Positions 48,725-59,477 of a stretch of 64,000 nucleotides of DNA are shown here, piece after piece. Made by a program: the position numbers and the translations under genes. The notes under the pieces were generated by a model. That model made no database searches, was not told the origin of the DNA, and worked only from the letters and a program-made list of their open reading frames with translations. The DNA is from Alloyangia pacifica (GTDB lineage: Bacteria; Pseudomonadota; Alphaproteobacteria; Rhodobacterales; Rhodobacteraceae), in assembly GCF_020524285.1 (NCBI RefSeq), contig NZ_JAIVKX010000004.1:248001-312000 (forward strand), given 5' to 3'. How positions within the stretch are numbered: position 1 is the first letter of the stretch; the number at the start of each line of letters is the position of its first letter.

Positions 48725-50043
<1,319 letters not shown>

Positions 50044-50044
<1 letters not shown>

Positions 50045-51114
50045 TGGGCTTCGCACGGCAAGAGCCCAGGCTCGCCTTCTGGACCGATACGGAGGCGCTT
50101 GAATGCGTCTCCTACCTGCCGGAAACGCCGGGCACGGCGACCTTCACCTTCCAGGCACCCTCGGGTGCGCTCTTCAGCTACAAGCCCGGGCAGTTCATCA
50201 CCCTCGAGCTGCCAGTGCCCGGCGGGCCGCTGCACCGCACTTACACGATCTCCTCCTCGCCTTCGCGCCCGACCTCGCTGACGGTGACCGTCAAGGCACA
50301 GCCGGACTCCCTCGGAACCCGCTGGATGCTCGACAACCTGCGCCCCGGCATGCGCATCAAGGCCAGCGGCCCGCGCGGCGAGTTCACCTACTTCAACGCG
50401 CCGGGGAAGAAATACCTCTTCATCTCCGCCGGGTCGGGCATCACCCCGATGATGTCGATGACGACGCATATGTACGACGGCGGGCGCGACGCTGACGTCG
50501 TCTTCGTCAACTGCGCCCGCCGCCCCTCGGAAATCCTGTTCCGCGAGCGGCTCGCGCACATGGCGTCGCGCATCTCGGGCATCGAACTTGCCTGGGTGGT
50601 CGAAGGCACCGACCGCTTCCAGCCGTGGACCGGCTACAAGGGCCTGTTCAACCAGTTGATCCTCGGCCTCGTGGCGCCCGACTACCTCGAGCGCGAGGTG
50701 TTCTGCTGCGGCCCCGAGCCTTTCATGCAGGCGGTGCGCGAGGCCCTCGCCGGGCTCGGCTTCGACATGGATCACTACCACCAGGAAAGCTTCGGTGCGC
50801 CCGAACCCGTCGCGCTGCCGCTCCCGGACGATGACCTGCCCGAAGACGGCGTCATGGCGGAGATCCATTTTGCCGCCTCCGACGTGACAAGCACCTGCGC
50901 CGAGACCGAAACCGTCCTGTCAGCGGCCAAGGCGGCGGGCATCAGTATCGCCTCGGGCTGCACCTTCGGCATTTGCGGCACCTGCAAGGTCCGCAAGACC
51001 GAGGGCGAGGTGCACATGGTCCACAACGGCGGCATCACCGACGACGAAATCGAGCAGGGCTACATTCTGGCCTGCTGCTCGAACCCCAAGGGAAAGGTCT
51101 CGCTCGACCTGTGA
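50044..51114 (+). CDS. FAD/2Fe-2S oxidoreductase partner of the Rieske oxygenase
   Basis: A 356-residue reductase. The FAD-binding barrel has RTYTISSSPS near 64, the NAD domain has SAGSGITPMMSM near 127 and CCGPEPFM near 221, and a C-terminal plant-type 2Fe-2S domain carries CTFGICGTCKV near 315 with a final Cys in ILACCS. It passes electrons from NAD(P)H to the oxygenase. ATG 50044 overlaps the upstream stop by one base (TGATG); GTG 50041 is less likely. Confidence 0.93.
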
Positions 51115-51198
51115 CCCGGAGCCGGGCGCGCCAGCCCCGCCCCGGCCCGCCCCCGACCGCGCGAGCCTGCACAAATCCGCGGACGCCTGACAGCCGGC

Positions 51199-51837
51199 CT
51201 ACTGACCTTTTGCCCGGTACCCGATGCGCGCCATGAAGCGCTCCATTTCCTGCTGCGGCGGGCGCTTGCCGGTGTAGATTTCGACGTAGCTCGGGAAACG
51301 GTCCAGGCGTTCCTCGACCGGCTCGTCGACCCGCATCGAGATATAGCCGACCTGCACAAGGTAGATGGTCCGGGCACGCACGTCGGCATCTTGCTCCCCG
51401 TGCCCCCAGGCCAGCAGCATGTCGCGCAGCGCCGCGAGCCGCTCCGCATCCGCACGTTGCACCCGGGCCAGCACATCCGGATCCTGCTGCGCCCAGGCCC
51501 GCACGGCCAGCTCCAGCCGGGTGTCGAAGACCGCATCCGACAGGAAGGTGCTGATCACGTTCAGCATCGCCTCTGTCTCGGTTGCGGCATAGTCACGGCT
51601 CGCCGCCAGCAGCGCGCCGGTGGTGCTGGCCTCCCAACGGTTCAGCAGCATTGCGAGCAATTGCCTGCGGTCCTTGAAGAACCAGTAGAAGCTGGTCCGC
51701 GAAAGGTTCAGCGCGGTCGCCAGCGGCATGATCTTCACCGCGTCGACGCCCTTCTCGATCAGGGTCTCATAGGCCGCATCGAGCCAGAGCTCTGGAGAGC
51801 CGCGCCAGCCGCGGTCGGGGTGTGATTCTTGGGTCAT
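51199..51837 (-). CDS. TetR/AcrR family regulator
   Basis: A 212-residue repressor-type protein. The HTH lies at about residues 20-65 (PLATALNLSRTSFYWFFKDRRQLLAMLLNRW), followed by an all-helical effector domain. It sits between the reductase and the OYE-type demethylase genes, convergent with the first and divergent from the second, so it may control the demethylase promoter in the 338-base gap. The effector is unknown. Confidence 0.92.
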   Translation of the reverse strand: MTQESHPDRGWRGSPELWLDAAYETLIEKGVDAVKIMPLATALNLSRTSFYWFFKDRRQLLAMLLNRWEASTTGALLAASRDYAATETEAMLNVISTFLSDAVFDTRLELAVRAWAQQDPDVLARVQRADAERLAALRDMLLAWGHGEQDADVRARTIYLVQVGYISMRVDEPVEERLDRFPSYVEIYTGKRPPQQEMERFMARIGYRAKGQ

Positions 51838-52175
51838 GGGGCTCCGATATGCGCAGAAGGGCCGGCATCACAGCCCGCGTTAGCACAGCCGCCCATTAAA
51901 TGTACATAACTGTCATCCCCAATCAAGCTCCTCCCCACGACATTCGAGTTCTCGACTGGAGAATGCCCGAGCCAAAATTGACCAACATTGTACAAAATTA
52001 ACTAATTAAATCATATACTAAACACCTAGATTCCGCCATCCTTCCGAGATCGACGCGGATCCACAAGGCATCATGAGCCAAAATCACTCGTGATCTTAAT
52101 ATTGACACCTATGCACATTTTGTAAAAGTCAGGGTCAGGCACTCAGCAAACGCCCCTCCGCAGAAGGCACCCAAC
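51838..52175. promoter_or_regulatory. Divergent promoter region of the TetR and demethylase genes
   Basis: A 338-base gap that is clearly more AT-rich than its surroundings. Two palindromes with core TGTACA lie at 51900-51907 (ATGTACAT) and 51988-51995 (TTGTACAA), 88 bases apart. They are candidate operators for the adjacent TetR protein. I could not fix -10/-35 boxes with confidence. Confidence 0.45.
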
Positions 52176-54212
52176 ATGTCGAACGATCCGCTCCTGCAGC
52201 CGTACCAGCTCAAGCACCTGACGCTGAAGAACCGCATCATGATCACCAGCCACGAGCCGGCTTACCCCGAGGATGGCATGCCCAAGGAGCGTTACCGCGC
52301 CTACCACGTGGAGCGGGCGAAAGCGGGCGTAGCGCTGACCATGACCGCAGGCTCGGCTTCGGTCGCGCGCGACAGCCCGCCGGTGTTCAACAATATCCTG
52401 GCGTGGAAGGACGAAGTCGTCGGCCATATGGCCAAGCTCGCGCAGGAATGCCACGACGAGGGCTGCGCGGTGATGATCCAGCTCACCCACCTCGGCCGCC
52501 GCACCCGCTGGGACAAGGCCGACTGGCTGCCGGTGGTCTCCACCGGCCACGAGCGTGAAGCTTCGCACCGCGCCTTCCCCAAGAAGATGGAAGACTGGGA
52601 CATCGCACGGATCATCGAGGACTACGCCGAGGCCGCAGAGCGCATGCAGGCCGCCGGCCTCGACGGCATCGAGATCCAGGCCTACGGCCACCTGATGGAC
52701 CAGTTCTGGTCGCCGCTGACCAACGAGCTCGACGGCCCCTACGGCGGCAGCCTCGACAACCGCCTGCGCTTCACCTTCGACATCCTGTCGGAAATCCGCA
52801 AACGCTGCGGCGACGCGTTCCTCGTCGGCGTGCGCTATACCGGTGACGAGGACCTGCCCGGCGGCCTCACCCGCGAGGATGGGCTGACCATCTCGCACAA
52901 GCTCAAGGACAGCGGGCTGGTCGACTTCCTCAACGTGGTGAAGGGCCATATCGACACCGACCCGGGGCTGACCGACCTGATCCCGATCCAGGGCATGCGC
53001 AACGCGCCGCATCTCGACTTTGCCGGCGACATTCGCGCTGCGACCAACTTCCCCACCTTCCACGCCGCCAAGATCCCCGACGTCGCCACCGCCCGCCACG
53101 CCATCGCCAGCGGCAAGCTCGACATGGTGGGCATGACCCGCGCGCAGATGGCCGACCCGCATCTCGTGCGCAAGGTGATCGAGGGGCGCGAGGATGACAT
53201 TCGCCCCTGCGTCGGCGCCAACTACTGCCTCGACCGCATCTACCAGGGTGGCATGGCGCTCTGCCTGCACAACCCCTCGACCGGGCGCGAGATCGAGCAG
53301 CCGCACACCATCGAGAAGGCCGAGGTGAAGAAGCGCGTGACCATCGTCGGCGCCGGCCCGGCCGGGCTCGAAGCCGCCCGCGTCGCCGCCGAGCGCGGCC
53401 ACGCGGTGACGGTCTTCGAGGCCGCCGACCAGCCCGGCGGACAGATCCGCCTCACCGCCCTGCAGGAACGCCGCCGCGAGATGTCCTCGATCGTCGCCTG
53501 GCGCTTCGACCAGTGCGAGAAGATGGGCGTTTCCTTCAACTTCAACACATTCGCGGATGGGGCCGACGTGCTCGCGAGCAATCCGGACGAGGTGATCATC
53601 GCCACCGGCGGCCTGCCCCACACCGAGGTGCTGAGCGCCGGCAACGAGCTGGTGGTGTCCGCCTGGGACATCCTGTCGGGCGACGTGAGGCCGGGGCAGA
53701 ACGTGCTGGTGTTCGACGATGCGGGCGACCACGCCGGCCTTCAGGCGGCGGACCTGCTGTCCGAGGGCGGCGCACGGGTCGAAATCGTCACCCCCGACCG
53801 GGCCTTTGCACCCGAGGTCATGGCGATGAACCTCGTGCCCTACATGCGCAACCTGCAGAAGCGCGACACCACCTTCACCGTCACCTGGCGGCTGAAGTCG
53901 GTCACCCGCGAGGGGAACCAACTGAAGGCGGTGCTCGGATCGGACTACGGCGATGTCACCCGCGAACGGCTGGTCGACCAGGTCGTGGTCAACCACGGCA
54001 CGCGCCCGCTCGACGACGTCTATTTCGAGCTGAAGCCGCTGTCGCGAAACCTCGGCGAGGTCGATTACGACGCGCTGGCGACGGGCGGCCTGCAGGCGGT
54101 CGAAAGCAACTCCGAGGGCCGCTTCCGCGTCTTCCGCATCGGCGACGCCGTCTCTGCCCGCAACACCCACGCGGCGATCTACGACGCGCTGCGCCTCACC
54201 CGCGGCCTCTGA
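52176..54212 (+). CDS. stcD: Old-yellow-enzyme-type demethylase, likely N-methylproline demethylase
   Basis: A 678-residue flavoprotein of the 2,4-dienoyl-CoA reductase/trimethylamine dehydrogenase group. The FMN barrel spans residues 1-340, with NRIMITSHEPAY and YGHLMDQFWSP. A 4Fe-4S segment CVGANYCLDRIYQGGMALC is near 348, and an FAD/NAD domain starts with VTIVGAGPAGLEAARVAAE near 390. StcD (N-methylproline) and DgcA (dimethylglycine) share this architecture. The absence of dgcB or sarcosine oxidase genes favours StcD. The symbol is an inference. Confidence 0.85.
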   Translation: MSNDPLLQPYQLKHLTLKNRIMITSHEPAYPEDGMPKERYRAYHVERAKAGVALTMTAGSASVARDSPPVFNNILAWKDEVVGHMAKLAQECHDEGCAVMIQLTHLGRRTRWDKADWLPVVSTGHEREASHRAFPKKMEDWDIARIIEDYAEAAERMQAAGLDGIEIQAYGHLMDQFWSPLTNELDGPYGGSLDNRLRFTFDILSEIRKRCGDAFLVGVRYTGDEDLPGGLTREDGLTISHKLKDSGLVDFLNVVKGHIDTDPGLTDLIPIQGMRNAPHLDFAGDIRAATNFPTFHAAKIPDVATARHAIASGKLDMVGMTRAQMADPHLVRKVIEGREDDIRPCVGANYCLDRIYQGGMALCLHNPSTGREIEQPHTIEKAEVKKRVTIVGAGPAGLEAARVAAERGHAVTVFEAADQPGGQIRLTALQERRREMSSIVAWRFDQCEKMGVSFNFNTFADGADVLASNPDEVIIATGGLPHTEVLSAGNELVVSAWDILSGDVRPGQNVLVFDDAGDHAGLQAADLLSEGGARVEIVTPDRAFAPEVMAMNLVPYMRNLQKRDTTFTVTWRLKSVTREGNQLKAVLGSDYGDVTRERLVDQVVVNHGTRPLDDVYFELKPLSRNLGEVDYDALATGGLQAVESNSEGRFRVFRIGDAVSARNTHAAIYDALRLTRGL

Positions 54213-54627: not shown

Positions 54628-54702
54628 TGGCTGGGGCGGTAGGATTCGAACCTACGGTGCGCGGTACCAAAAACCGGTGCCTTACCACTTGGCTACGCCC
54701 CA
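54628..54702 (-). tRNA. tRNA-Gln (anticodon TTG)
   Basis: A 75-nt tRNA on the minus strand with encoded CCA. The acceptor stem TGGGGCG pairs with CGCCCCA, the D arm reads GCCAAGTGGTAAGGC, and the T arm has GGTTCGAATCC. The anticodon loop TTTTGGT gives anticodon TTG, reading CAA. The overall sequence closely follows the Escherichia coli tRNA-Gln(TTG) pattern. One C-C mismatch closes the anticodon stem. Confidence 0.96.
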
Positions 54703-54777: not shown

Positions 54778-55836
54778 TCACCTCGGGGAACCCTCCTCCG
54801 GGCCTCGGACGGAGCCGCCCGCTGCCCGTCGCTCGGGTCCCTTTTCCGCACTTTCGGGGTGATGAAACGCGTATTGCCCGCGCCCGGCTCTCTTGGCGGC
54901 ATAGAGCGCGACGTCGGATGCCTCGAGCACTGCCTCGGCGGTGCTGAGGCGCGCACCTGCCTGCCTCAGGGCGATCCCGATGCTGGCGGAGACCCGGGCC
55001 GCCCTGCCGTGAGCTTCGGCCTCAAAGCCGATCGGCGCCTCCAGCCGCGCGATGAGCCGCGCCGCCAGTTCTCCGAGCCGCACCCTGTCGGTCACGCCGA
55101 CAAGGACAATAACAAACTCGTCGCCGCCGATCCGCGCCACCGTATCCTCCTGCCGGGTGACCTCGAGCATGAGCGCCGCGACCCGGGCCAGGACCCTGTC
55201 GCCCGCGCCGTGGCCCAGCGTGTCGTTCACCTGTTTGAAGAAATCGAGATCCACATGCATCACGGCAAAATCCATGTCGCGCCGCAGGAGGTCGGTGAGC
55301 GCCCGGGTGAGCGCCCGGCGGTTTCGAAGACCGGTCAACGGGTCGGTGAAGGCGCGCTCCTCGGCCGCGAGCATGGCGCCGCGCAGGCGTCGATTGAGGG
55401 TGCGCGACGCTTCCATTGCGGCGGATTTCGCCTCGACCAGGTAGAGCATGTCGATCGCCAGGTCGGTGGCGGCGAAATCGCTGCTGGTGAGCGCGTGATC
55501 GCGCACCGCCTCGACCAGGCCAAGGCCGAAGGAGAGGTTCAGCACGGCACCGCCGGCGCCATCGGGCACGGCAAGCCCGCGCAGCGTGTCGCCCTGCCCC
55601 GCAAGCCGCAGCTGCAGACGCCGCCCCGCAAGCGACAGCAGGTCGGGCAGGGTCGCCACCGTGCGCGGACGGAACACCACGAAGACCCGGGAGAAGTGCG
55701 TATCGCGAAGCTCCTGCCCCGCAAGCACCCGCTGCAGGGTCGGCCCCAGCCCCTGCACCCGCCCCGAAGCGTCGAGCCGGGCATGCATGGGGCACAAAAT
55801 GTCGAGACTTGCCTGGTCCATGAGGAGCGGCGTCAT
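54778..55836 (-). CDS. Diguanylate cyclase with H-NOX-associated (HNOBA-like) domain
   Basis: A 352-residue protein. Residues 10-130 match the HNOBA-type domain: CPMHARLDASGRV, FVVFRPRT, LNLSFG and DFAATDLAIDMLYLVEA. A signalling helix follows at 135-162. The GGDEF domain has intact GGDEF at 237-241, TDPLTGLRNRRAL at its start, and an inhibitory I-site RxxD at 228-231, so it should make cyclic di-GMP and show product inhibition. The start overlaps the H-NOX stop (ATGA), tying the pair together. Confidence 0.93.
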   Translation of the reverse strand: MTPLLMDQASLDILCPMHARLDASGRVQGLGPTLQRVLAGQELRDTHFSRVFVVFRPRTVATLPDLLSLAGRRLQLRLAGQGDTLRGLAVPDGAGGAVLNLSFGLGLVEAVRDHALTSSDFAATDLAIDMLYLVEAKSAAMEASRTLNRRLRGAMLAAEERAFTDPLTGLRNRRALTRALTDLLRRDMDFAVMHVDLDFFKQVNDTLGHGAGDRVLARVAALMLEVTRQEDTVARIGGDEFVIVLVGVTDRVRLGELAARLIARLEAPIGFEAEAHGRAARVSASIGIALRQAGARLSTAEAVLEASDVALYAAKRAGRGQYAFHHPESAEKGPERRAAGGSVRGPEEGSPR

Positions 55837-56465
55837 TTCCGCCCTGCCCCCGGCCCGCCAGGCTGCCGTCCCGCCCCATGCGCGCCGAGATCAAAGGCCC
55901 GCCCCTCGGAATAGGCGGTCTCGATCACCGCGATCTGAATCACCTCGGCCTCCCCCGGCCCCTCCTCCAGCTCAAGCAGGACCAGCGCACCGTAATCGTC
56001 CGCCATGGCACGCAGGACCCCGGCCAGCACGCGGGAATAGCCCCGGTTCGTCGGCCCCTTGCAGCGGCAGACAAGGGTGAAGCGGCGCGGTGCGGTCTCG
56101 GTCAGTTCCAGCGGCGGCAGGTCGAGGTCGGGCACCGCCAGTCGGGCCCGCCCGGGCAGCTCCTCCAGCGAGTGCAGGAAGTCGATGAAATCCTCGCCGC
56201 CGTAGCGCATCAGGCGGCGCAGCCGCTCGTTGTGGGGGTGTGCCATGAGATAGGTCCCGATATCCTCGAGAATCGCCGCCCGCGACTTGCCGAGCTCCAC
56301 CTCGGCACGGGTCAGGATCTGGCCGATGAGCTGCGACTCATAGTCGAGCATCGCCTCGAACTCCGGCAGATCGAGATGCGCCGCATCGGCCACGTTCTGC
56401 CAGCAGTCCTGCCCGTAGGTGTCCTGCACGAAGCATTGCAGCGTCCGCGCGACCAATCCGTGCAT
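55833..56465 (-). CDS. H-NOX-fold protein lacking the canonical heme ligands
   Basis: A 210-residue protein. Residues 1-165 follow the H-NOX fold (MHGLVARTLQCFV at the start, YGGEDFIDFLHSL near 88-100). Aligned without gaps to Shewanella-type H-NOX, the proximal heme His is Pro104, and the YxSxR motif (Y, S, R) is Cys133, Cys135 and Gly137. His98 lies six residues earlier on the same helix and might substitute as a ligand. Cys11, Cys21, Cys133 and Cys135 could form a redox or metal site. I start at ATG 56465 because H-NOX proteins begin MxG; ATG 56477 is possible. Confidence 0.85.
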   Translation of the reverse strand: MHGLVARTLQCFVQDTYGQDCWQNVADAAHLDLPEFEAMLDYESQLIGQILTRAEVELGKSRAAILEDIGTYLMAHPHNERLRRLMRYGGEDFIDFLHSLEELPGRARLAVPDLDLPPLELTETAPRRFTLVCRCKGPTNRGYSRVLAGVLRAMADDYGALVLLELEEGPGEAEVIQIAVIETAYSEGRAFDLGAHGAGRQPGGPGAGRK

Positions 56466-56729
56466 GCGCCGTTCCATAAGCAGCCCCCCGGACCCCAGGC
56501 CAATCGCCTTGCCCATAGCCGCGTGCTGCAGACCGTGAACCCTGCCACGTCTCCCTATCGAAGAACCAAGACGCAGCCTTCCGCGTCACATCCGCTCAGC
56601 ATCATGACCCGGCACGGCGCGCAGCTCAGCCAACCGTTCCAGTGGCGCGCACCGTTGGGCCAGCCCTGTCAGGCTAGCGCGGGGCTCTTAAGATTTTCGC
56701 AATGGATAAAATACGAGAGGAATTCCGCC

Positions 56730-57446
56730 TCAAGCCTCGATGGCGCAGAGCCAGCGCGGCAGATGCCCGATGTCGGGAAGCACCACATCCGCGAGGTGAC
56801 GCAGCTCATCGGCTTCGGCGGGCCCGGTCAGCACGCCGACGGTCATCATCCCCGCCGCACGCCCGGCCTGCAGGTCGTGGGTGCTGTCGCCGACCATCAC
56901 CACCTGCCCGGGCGGCAGACCGATTGCCGCGGCGAAGGCGAGCAGCGGCGCGGGCGAGGGCTTCGCGCCGTGGCCGCTGTCGAAGCCCGCAACGAAGTCG
57001 AACCGGTCGCCAACCCCGACCTGCGCGAGGTGCGCATGGGCCACGGCCTCGTTGTCGTTGGTCATCACGCCAAGGCGCAGCCCAGCCCCGCGCAACGAAT
57101 CCAGCAGTGGCGCCAGCGGCACCGCCTCGGCCAGCGGCGCCCGCGCCGCCTCTTCGGACAGGAAGCGCTCGAGGGCATCGGGATCGGTCCGCCCCAGCGC
57201 GCGGCACAGGCTGTCCGCCGCCTCGCGGCTGGTGCCGGCGATCACCGGGCTGTCCTTGAAGAAGACCCCTTCCGCCAGATCGAAGCGCAGCGCCTGCGCC
57301 ATAGCCTCGACCAGGTCCGCATCGCCCCCGGCAAGCTGCCGCATGACTTCCTGCAGCCAGGCGCTCCAGGTCCGGGTGAAATCGAACAGCGTGCCGTCCT
57401 TGTCGAACAGCACCGCCGCGGCGCGCATGCGGGGCGTAGTGCTCAT
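56730..57446 (-). CDS. HAD family hydrolase (phosphoglycolate phosphatase-like)
   Basis: A 238-residue HAD-superfamily phosphatase. The catalytic motif I is VLFDKDGTLFDF near residues 13-24, motif II is the Thr of GVMTNDNE near 128, and motif IV is MVGDSTHDLQAGRAAG near 185-200. A helical cap lies between motifs I and II. Substrates are small phosphate esters such as phosphoglycolate, but the identity is not readable. It overlaps the DUF3572 gene by four bases. Confidence 0.92.
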   Translation of the reverse strand: MSTTPRMRAAAVLFDKDGTLFDFTRTWSAWLQEVMRQLAGGDADLVEAMAQALRFDLAEGVFFKDSPVIAGTSREAADSLCRALGRTDPDALERFLSEEAARAPLAEAVPLAPLLDSLRGAGLRLGVMTNDNEAVAHAHLAQVGVGDRFDFVAGFDSGHGAKPSPAPLLAFAAAIGLPPGQVVMVGDSTHDLQAGRAAGMMTVGVLTGPAEADELRHLADVVLPDIGHLPRWLCAIEA

Positions 57447-57724
57447 GTCCAGTGCACCTCGCCGCCGCCCGGCAGGTGCTGGCGCGCCTGGAACGGCAGG
57501 TCATAGGCCAGCCCCGCCTCGTCGCAGAATCCGCGCACCCAGGCGTCATCCATCAGCAGGAAGTCAAGCACGGCGCCCTGGAACGCCGGGTCCGACAGGC
57601 CGGTGCGGAAATCCTCGGCTGAAGCGCCGGTGGCGCCCAGGAAAACCGGGAGCAGCTCGTCGTTCGCCGCCAACCAGGCCGCCGCCTGCAGGCCGATCAG
57701 CTCGGCCTCGTCACGCCCCACCAT
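57443..57724 (-). CDS. DUF3572 domain-containing protein
   Basis: A 93-residue acidic, helical protein matching DUF3572: GLQAAAWLAANDELLPVFLGATGAS near residues 11-35 and FLLMDDAWVRGFCDEAGL near 56. The family is common in Alphaproteobacteria and often lies next to the downstream HAD or response-regulator genes. It overlaps the HAD gene (ATGA). Function unknown. Confidence 0.88.
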   Translation of the reverse strand: MVGRDEAELIGLQAAAWLAANDELLPVFLGATGASAEDFRTGLSDPAFQGAVLDFLLMDDAWVRGFCDEAGLAYDLPFQARQHLPGGGEVHWT

Positions 57725-57974
57725 CTTTGCAACTCCCCGTATTCAGAAAGGCTTTCTTAACCGGTTCTCATAAAGACTGAGCGGCGAAACGGATGCAAGC
57801 CCGGGCGGGGCGGCGCGACAGGCACGGGCACGCGACAAGCGTGAGCGCGGGACTGAAAGCTGTGCTCGGAAGGCTGTGTTCGAAAGGCTGTGCTGGGAAG
57901 GCTATGGCCCGAAGGCTGCGGCAGGAATTTGGCGTCAGAAGGACGCCGACGAGACCAGGAAGGCGACGTCAGGA

Positions 57975-59477
57975 ATGGCAGGACGCATACTTATCGTCGA
58001 AGGCACGGCGAGCCACAGGATCCTGTTGCGGGCCAGGCTGACCTCCGCCTTCTATCAGGTACTCTCGGCACAAAGCGGGCACGAGGCATTGCACATGTTG
58101 GGGAAAGCCCGGGTCGACCTCGTGCTCGCCGCGGCCGATCTGCCGGACATGTGCGGCAGTGGCTTCTGCACCCGCCTGCATGCCTTGCCCGGCCAGGCGG
58201 AACTGCCGGTGGTCCTGCTGATCGACGACGACCGGATCGAGGAGCGGCTGGCGCTGCTCGCGGTGGGGGCCGACGATGTCCTTGCCCGTCCGGTCGAGGA
58301 TATCCTGCTGCTTGCGCGGATTCGCAGCCTGCTGCACCGCAGCCGGGCGCAGGACGAGCTGCCGCTGCGCGCCGACGCGCGGCGCGCGCTCGGCCTGTCC
58401 GAGGCCCCGCCGAGCTTCGACCGGCCCGCCCGCATTGCCCTTGTCCCGCTGGATCGAACCCGCGACCTCGGCGCCATGGCGGCGCGCCTGCAGATCGCGC
58501 TCGGCGCGCAGGTCAGGCAGGCGGAGCCGGATCAGCTGTTGCGGCGCGATGCCGCCTCGGCAGAGGCGGTGGTCCTGGTCGACTCCGATGCCGATCCGGG
58601 CGCAGGGCTTGCGCTGCTGTCGCAATTGCGCACCGCCCCGGCGCAACGCCGCGCCGCGCTGCTCTACGTCACGCAGCCGGGCCGCGATACCACCGCCGCG
58701 CAGGCGCTCGATCTCGGCGCGGATGACCTGCTGCGTGCGGGGCCCGACGCGCTGGAGCTCGCGCTGCGCCTGCCCCGGCTGATCCGCCGCAAGCGCACCG
58801 CCGAGCGGCACCGGGCGGCCCTGCGCAGCGGGCTGCGCGCGGCGATGATCGACCCTCTCACCGGGCTCTACAACCGCCGCTACGCCCTGCCCGAGGTGAG
58901 CCGCAGGGCGCAGCTGTCCATCCAGCGCGGCGGCCAGCTTGCGCTTCTCGTCGCCGATCTCGACCACTTCAAGCAGGTGAACGACCGCTGGGGACACAGC
59001 GCGGGGGACAAGGTTCTGACCGCAACGGCGCAGGCGCTCATGGCGCAGCGCCGCGGCGGCGACCTCGTGGCGCGCCTCGGCGGAGAGGAGTTTCTCATCG
59101 CTCTGCCCGACGCCACGCGGGAGGACGCTCTCGAGACCGCGCGGCAGCTTTGCGAGACCGTGGCCCGGCTCACGTTGCCGATGCCCGGCCCCGAGACCCC
59201 TGCACATCTGCTGTCGCCGACGGTCAGCATCGGGATCGCGATGATGGAAGAGCCCAGCGAAGCGGTCTCCACCGGCCTCCTGCGCGCCGATCGTGCGCTC
59301 TACGCGGCGAAGCGCGCAGGGCGCAACCGGGTCGAAATCGCTCCAAAGCAGGGGTTTTGGCAAGGGCCGCAGCTCTGCGCCGCCCCTGACCCGTCGTGCC
59401 CGCCGGATCAGTCCGCCGGTTTGCGCGGGATTCGCCGGGCCAGTTCGTCGAGCTCCGCCTCGAGCCGGTCGGCGTAG
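57975..59477 (+). CDS. PleD-like diguanylate cyclase with degenerate receivers
   Basis: A 500-residue protein with a PleD layout of two receiver-like domains (about 3-120 and 148-270) and a GGDEF domain (about 310-475). In receiver 1 the acidic pair is Glu9-Gly10, the phospho-Asp position is Ala53 and the conserved Lys is Arg105, so it is probably not phosphorylated. The GGEEF motif is at 369-373 with an I-site RxxD at 360-363. A Ser-rich tail of about 23 residues overlaps the next gene by 70 bases. ATG 57975 is chosen because the receiver fold begins there. Confidence 0.88.
   Translation: MAGRILIVEGTASHRILLRARLTSAFYQVLSAQSGHEALHMLGKARVDLVLAAADLPDMCGSGFCTRLHALPGQAELPVVLLIDDDRIEERLALLAVGADDVLARPVEDILLLARIRSLLHRSRAQDELPLRADARRALGLSEAPPSFDRPARIALVPLDRTRDLGAMAARLQIALGAQVRQAEPDQLLRRDAASAEAVVLVDSDADPGAGLALLSQLRTAPAQRRAALLYVTQPGRDTTAAQALDLGADDLLRAGPDALELALRLPRLIRRKRTAERHRAALRSGLRAAMIDPLTGLYNRRYALPEVSRRAQLSIQRGGQLALLVADLDHFKQVNDRWGHSAGDKVLTATAQALMAQRRGGDLVARLGGEEFLIALPDATREDALETARQLCETVARLTLPMPGPETPAHLLSPTVSIGIAMMEEPSEAVSTGLLRADRALYAAKRAGRNRVEIAPKQGFWQGPQLCAAPDPSCPPDQSAGLRGIRRASSSSSASSRSA

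Follow-up and report, generated by a model that had tools for sequence, protein, structure and literature searches.

The stretch of 64,000 nucleotides from Alloyangia pacifica that was analysed, here called the window, contains two overlapping genes on the minus strand. The first (55833-56465) encodes a protein of 210 amino acids starting with MHGLV, which is predicted to have the HNOB fold without the canonical heme anchors and is here called a pseudo-H-NOX. The second (54778-55836) encodes its cognate diguanylate cyclase of 352 amino acids, with an HNOBA-like N-terminal domain followed by a GGDEF domain with an RxxD I-site. The start of the cyclase gene and the stop of the H-NOX gene share the bases ATGA (55833-55836, minus strand), which suggests translational coupling. 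The pseudo-H-NOX matches the Pfam family HNOB (PF07700) at 71.2 bits over residues 2-159, above the curated cut-off of 25.5, and its gene is the only HNOB gene in the genome. The closest named relative among the matches found comes from Alloyangia pacifica, with 80% identity, and Salipiger species come next.

A preliminary description of this DNA called the adjoining cyclase intact. This holds for the GGDEF motif, the I-site (RQED) and the ATGA overlap, and the GGDEF domain (cyclase residues 162-320; 54877-55353, minus strand) scores 130.9 bits with Pfam GGDEF. It holds less well for the N-terminal domain because the HNOBA match in the window cyclase, 19.4 bits, is under the Pfam cut-off of 23.4. 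Among 29 cyclases of the class described below, the window's included, HNOBA is matched at E <= 0.01 in 25 and GGDEF in all 29.

No sigma-70-type promoters were found between 54600 and 56900, and terminators in the same interval were not above chance. A gene for tRNA-Gln (TTG; 54628-54702, minus strand) lies directly downstream of the cyclase gene, and genes for a HAD hydrolase and a DUF3572 protein (56730-57724, minus strand) lie just upstream of the H-NOX gene. Of the 129 class loci measuring at least 6 kb, 69 have a HAD relative nearby and 55 a DUF3572 relative, which makes this gene block only partly conserved; on a Phaeobacter plasmid both genes also precede an H-NOX/GGDEF pair. A second cyclase gene is located 1.4 kb away on the opposite strand (57876-59477, plus strand). 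Its product has a receiver and a GGDEF domain (Pfam 70 and 146 bits) with a GGEEF motif, and is PleD-like by domain order. A PleD-like neighbour was scored at 128 of the 129 loci, a result that was ignored because the query matches any GGDEF domain. Further away (48746-54212, plus strand) there are genes of the Rieske ring-hydroxylating oxygenase and NADH:flavin oxidoreductase families with a ferredoxin-reductase-like open reading frame between them, which may be a glycine-betaine/dimethylglycine demethylation block.

Heme-ligand positions and fold of the window protein

H-NOX proteins are generally regarded as sensors that detect gases through heme. The proximal histidine is absolutely conserved according to a survey of 598 homologs, as given in the available text of PMC7108781, and the YxSxR motif is called absolutely conserved in that of PMC12329717. 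When the window protein is aligned to Nostoc Alr2278 with HMMER, the proximal His105 falls over Pro104 (codon 56154-56156, minus strand) in a helix without gaps; the one gap, of a single residue, comes earlier, in a loop. Members of the class that keep the histidine align residue by residue around the ligand site, as seen for the Dinoroseobacter shibae-type sequence DDLHDRARLAVPDL versus EELPGRARLAVPDL, and over a wider stretch for DDLHDRARLAVPDLDLP versus EELPGRARLAVPDLDLP in the window. The proline at the ligand position and the H-NOX fold, both recognised in the preliminary description, are borne out by these alignments and by the HNOB match.

The YxSxR motif is absent from the window protein. 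Cys133 (56067-56069, minus strand) stands at the position of its tyrosine, and Cys135 (56061-56063, minus strand) and Gly137 are also present, as had been noted. Their pairing one by one with YxSxR is less secure: the subclade of the window protein has a three-residue insertion at about 137-139, and HMMER sets PTN, not C-x-G, under STR, so that the residues replacing serine and arginine depend on where the gap is placed. The alignments confirm the earlier claim that the proximal histidine and YxSxR are both missing, and the canonical heme anchor is lost. By profile and by structure model the protein is a member of the HNOB fold that, judged by its ligand residues, is not a heme-binding NO sensor.

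A structure model of the window protein built on 58 sequences has a mean pLDDT of 88.6 and a pTM of 0.82, with a helix at residues 93-110 that runs through residue 104. In Foldseek the model matches 4iae_A with E 2.9e-12, and VIA aligns 178 residues to 2o09_A with Z 20.6 and rmsd 2.2. The predicted three-dimensional fold is that of H-NOX, matching solved structures over the whole domain, and the pairing of Pro104 with His105 rests on the sequence. The structural matches also include the PDB entry of the H103G mutant of Shewanella H-NOX, which is said to be a trapped, kinase-inhibiting form. The model is closer to NO-activated than to inactive sGC (Z 22.0 versus 20.5), but a control model of a class member with histidine (L149) has the same preference (21.9 versus 20.4). 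The models consequently do not discriminate, and the idea of a locked-on conformation was dropped.

A divergent H-NOX class in Rhodobacteraceae

The class to which the window protein belongs was collected from 324 loci. Twenty-five had no match to the class profile (including the 100-base stretches L093 and L097), matches below 70 bits were omitted, and merging of identical proteins gave 271. Eight of these lacked the Arg84-Leu85 signature or scored below 110 bits and were set aside (L022, L023, L026, L071 and L197-L200), one of them, L071, with asparagine at the ligand site. The remaining 263 are an uneven sample, in which 80 loci are the best matches of one scan and 20 come from the host genus.

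A protein of the window type is present in all 20 genomes of the host genus, one of which (G017) additionally carries a canonical H-NOX. HNOB genes were found in 296 of 394 Rhodobacteraceae genomes (393 genera). The class profile matches 288 of the 394 genomes, a set with about one genome per genus, and the E value is under 1e-50 in 276; the latter number is 288 minus 12 weaker matches counted by eye, some of which are fragments of class genes. Among 385 genomes spread over Alphaproteobacteria the profile matches ten. Four belong to Rhodobacteraceae with E 3.3e-82 or better, one further Rhodobacteraceae genome has 9e-33, and the five from other families (2e-31 to 3e-14; L197-L201) have the canonical histidine and YxSxR. 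The class therefore looks confined to Rhodobacteraceae among the sampled genomes.

At position 104, 191 of the 263 class members have proline, 19 have histidine and 53 have other residues: serine in 14, arginine in 12, alanine, asparagine and glutamine in 6 each, glycine in 4, glutamate in 2, and threonine, lysine and aspartate in one each, with 12 different residues overall. In the part drawn at about one genome per genus (n=170), which covers some of the 288 genomes with a match, the numbers are 113 proline, 18 histidine and 39 others. None of the 263 has the three residues of YxSxR together. Absence of the ligand is the majority state of the class, and the window protein is neither a single odd protein nor a case of decay. 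Of the features singled out in the preliminary description, Pro104 is the commonest residue and is found in 20/20 members of the genus; Cys135 is not lineage-wide, occurring in 7 of these 20 and in 11 of the whole class.

Other positions are kept strictly. Arg87, Pro117, Gly149 and Gly159 are invariant in all 263, as is Arg84, which is itself part of the class definition. With Arg83 (261/263), the two arginines belong to the class signature RRLxR at residues 83-87 (56205-56219, minus strand). Asp156 (260), Tyr158 (259) and Phe191 (261) are nearly invariant. Gly149 (56019-56021, minus strand) is the second hinge glycine, and the first, Gly70 (56256-56258, minus strand), is found in 262/263. Pro117 sits at the position of the proximal proline, which distorts the heme in canonical H-NOX (PMC7108781). 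The roles of hinge glycine and proximal proline follow the available text of that paper, and the mapping onto the window residues is our own.

Canonical H-NOX proteins of the same family (n=35) have the histidine in 34 and YSR in 33, and a GGDEF gene comes next in 3/35 within the DNA examined. One protein of the canonical class (L055, G105:C4) has YSR intact and glutamine for the proximal histidine, a second route to loss of the ligand.

In the divergent class the cyclase gene lies directly behind the H-NOX gene in 260/263, and two of the remaining three run off the contig. The four-base ATGA-type overlap is present in 188/263, and the partner genes of the 263 encode GGDEF in 259 and RxxD in 256. 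Within the genus, dN/dS of the H-NOX gene is 0.08-0.19 (12 pairs) and below that of the cyclase in 11 of the 12. The pair is under purifying selection, which together with the linkage to the cyclase supports the earlier impression that it is functional. The same observations make it almost certainly wrong to regard the H-NOX gene as a decaying relic, as the varying ligand residues might suggest. Three Rhodobacteraceae genomes do have a stop inside a class H-NOX gene (G289:C24, G194:C2 and G214:C8), possibly by sequencing error, but the gene is kept throughout the genus and in 276 of the 394 family genomes, and a mutant phenotype is described for Paracoccus denitrificans in the available text of PMC5588039.

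The ligand position was followed in a tree of 142 rows (18 with histidine, 53 with other residues and 71 with proline, 70 of these drawn at random), based on H-NOX and cyclase with columns 104 and 135 omitted. The distinction between histidine and any other residue needs 9 changes, at least 6 of them forced by starred (well-supported) branches, and all residues at position 104 need 40; the tree is quick and unrooted with many weak forks, and these counts take gain and loss together. Because canonical H-NOX has the histidine, repeated loss would be the simpler reading, the other being one early loss followed by regains.

Genomes were regarded as NO-making when they had NirK over the cut-off or a cytochrome-d1 match with E below 1e-80. 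No significant link was found between retention of the histidine and these nitrite reductase genes: 9 of 18 genomes with histidine are NO-making versus 17 of 62 comparison genomes (Fisher p 0.09), or 18 of 62 when one fragment is counted (p 0.16), in a test that ignores kinship and with comparison genomes taken non-randomly from the available loci. In the window genome NirK was not found above the cut-off, and the cytochrome-d1 matches are short and weak, none of them full-length.

Heme, other ligands and the regulation of the cyclase

The reading we favour, with moderate confidence, is that the window protein is a stand-alone pseudo-H-NOX which has kept fold, hinge and cyclase, has dropped the heme anchor, and sets the activity of the cyclase, probably as an inhibitor. 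Such a protein would not sense NO via the canonical switch of histidine and heme. Its most likely binding site is the HNOBA-like domain of its own cyclase, whose activity it would set and probably inhibit. The level of c-di-GMP would then be tuned by the amount of pseudo-H-NOX, or by a signal other than heme-bound NO. Class members that have lost the histidine probably regulate without sensing NO through heme.

A different reading, which we regard as rather unlikely, is that heme is still bound in the pocket through another ligand, for example His2, and that NO or O2 is sensed in an altered way. His2 (56460-56462, minus strand), a candidate for another ligand or for a role at an interface, is found in 237/263 and in 172/191 members with proline, and Pro117 and the hinge glycines are kept. 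The D. shibae-type member also lacks YxSxR and is reported, in the available texts, as a heme NO sensor, so that loss of YxSxR alone does not equal loss of heme. However, His2 is equally common beside His104 (15/19), which makes it a mark of the class and not a compensation. The residue at the proximal position was compared with Trp135, His98, Cys133 and His2 on six starred independent tree pairs, a test without power, and nothing was significant; for His2 as compensation there was no lean toward support. After His2, the commonest histidine of the class is His76 (179/263). Tryptophan at position 135, formerly the serine of YxSxR, occurs in 9/19 members with histidine, 13/53 with other residues and, by difference, 5/191 with proline, and may mark members still holding heme.

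The preliminary description had proposed His98 (56172-56174, minus strand) as substitute ligand, or a redox or metal site of cysteines. As general mechanisms both fail. His98 is found in 159/263, in 122/191 members with proline but also in 10/19 that keep the histidine. The cysteines in the 263 are Cys133 in 160, Cys11 in 73, Cys21 in 19 and Cys135 in 11. Either could possibly apply to the window protein alone, and a switch of that protein to another ligand is likewise possible. A switch made of Cys133 and Cys135 with Cys11 and Cys21, replacing heme in the subclade of the window, would fit the host genus, where CxC is found in 7/20, Cys133 in 20/20 and Cys11 in 19/20, and a heme-independent switch of cysteines and zinc is described for Vibrio cholerae H-NOX (PMC7108781, available text). 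We nevertheless consider it very improbable: of these cysteines only Cys133 is common throughout the class, where the residue is otherwise mostly valine, leucine or isoleucine. In addition, V. cholerae-type zinc ligands occupy positions closer to the C-terminus, and the window protein has no cysteine after residue 135.

The fold and the hydrophobic core are kept in the model, so that a pocket may persist in the window protein. It might accept a new small molecule, such as a lipid, a quinone or another hydrophobic compound, with the hinge moving and signalling to the cyclase. The conservation of hinge glycines and core positions under purifying selection, despite the lost heme anchors, is consistent with this, but the positions of tyrosine, serine and arginine in YxSxR are variable and show no new polar anchor, and we find the proposal unlikely. 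We know of no ligand for the emptied H-NOX pocket of this class. A broader version, which we consider rather unlikely, is that the H-NOX fold was freed from heme several times across the family and became a general, NO-blind regulator of c-di-GMP synthesis, whose former heme pocket and hinge read some other small molecule.

Most members of the commonest H-NOX of Rhodobacteraceae (276 of 394 genomes) break both conservation rules. Annotations assigned automatically, for instance 'heme NO-binding domain-containing protein', and models leading from NO to c-di-GMP in these bacteria, may therefore be wrong. In the literature searched there was no account of the class, of how widely it occurs in the family or of the ligand having been replaced repeatedly, and an earlier description may exist.

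Comparison with known systems

Fusion to a cyclase and loss of heme ligand residues are combined in the alpha subunit of sGC. According to the available text of PMC8196705, its pseudo-H-NOX is a heme-free fold without the histidine (human) or YxSxR (moth) and is present in all known sGCs. The window protein resembles it in the missing ligand residues. Unlike the window protein, which is separate and starts with MHGL, the sGC domain is eukaryotic, belongs to a fused cyclase and has an N-terminal extension that blocks the pocket. No pocket-filling extension was found in the window protein; the sole start codon further upstream, at 56516, would lengthen it by 17 residues, and the MHGL start is common to 20/20 members of the genus.

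Output independent of heme has been shown for the H-NOX fold in V. cholerae (PMC7108781, available text). That protein differs in having the proximal histidine and a C-terminal zinc site of three cysteines, and in the window protein no such zinc ligands (three cysteines plus histidine or glutamine after the YxSxR region) were found. The H-NOX proteins of Legionella pneumophila and Shewanella woodyi are also encoded with, and act on, a c-di-GMP enzyme, but are heme-bearing NO sensors, as far as the available sources state. Both partners are bifunctional according to PMC5588039, whereas a review table gives the Legionella partner as a DGC.

The closest described case is the H-NOX Pden_3719 of P. 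denitrificans, which belongs to the same class and overlaps the GGDEF gene of DgcA (Pden_3720). It is only about 36% identical to the window protein (tblastn) and has no CxC pair, and the protein of strain HAMBI_2443 (L202) has proline at the ligand position. The available text of PMC5588039 already states that the H-NOX proteins of Rhodobacter sphaeroides and P. denitrificans lack the axial histidine. It describes hnoX mutants (Pd1222 derivatives) as partly biofilm-deficient and without BapA. The dgcAB mutant has the opposite phenotypes, and the authors conclude that DgcA is inhibited by H-NOX. They nevertheless suppose that NO acts via this histidine-less H-NOX, and report that NO stimulates biofilm in hnoX mutants also.

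The H-NOX of D. shibae (Dshi_2815; PMC7232146) and Dgc1 have the same class and operon as the window pair (L092), except that the ligand histidine is kept. Its NO-bound heme form is reported to inhibit Dgc1 in the available texts of PMC7232146 and PMC8846402. P. denitrificans and D. shibae would fit one common output, inhibition of the cyclase, with input from NO only where the histidine is kept. The histidine and proline versions of this one operon are natural pairs for comparing H-NOX control of a cyclase with and without heme.
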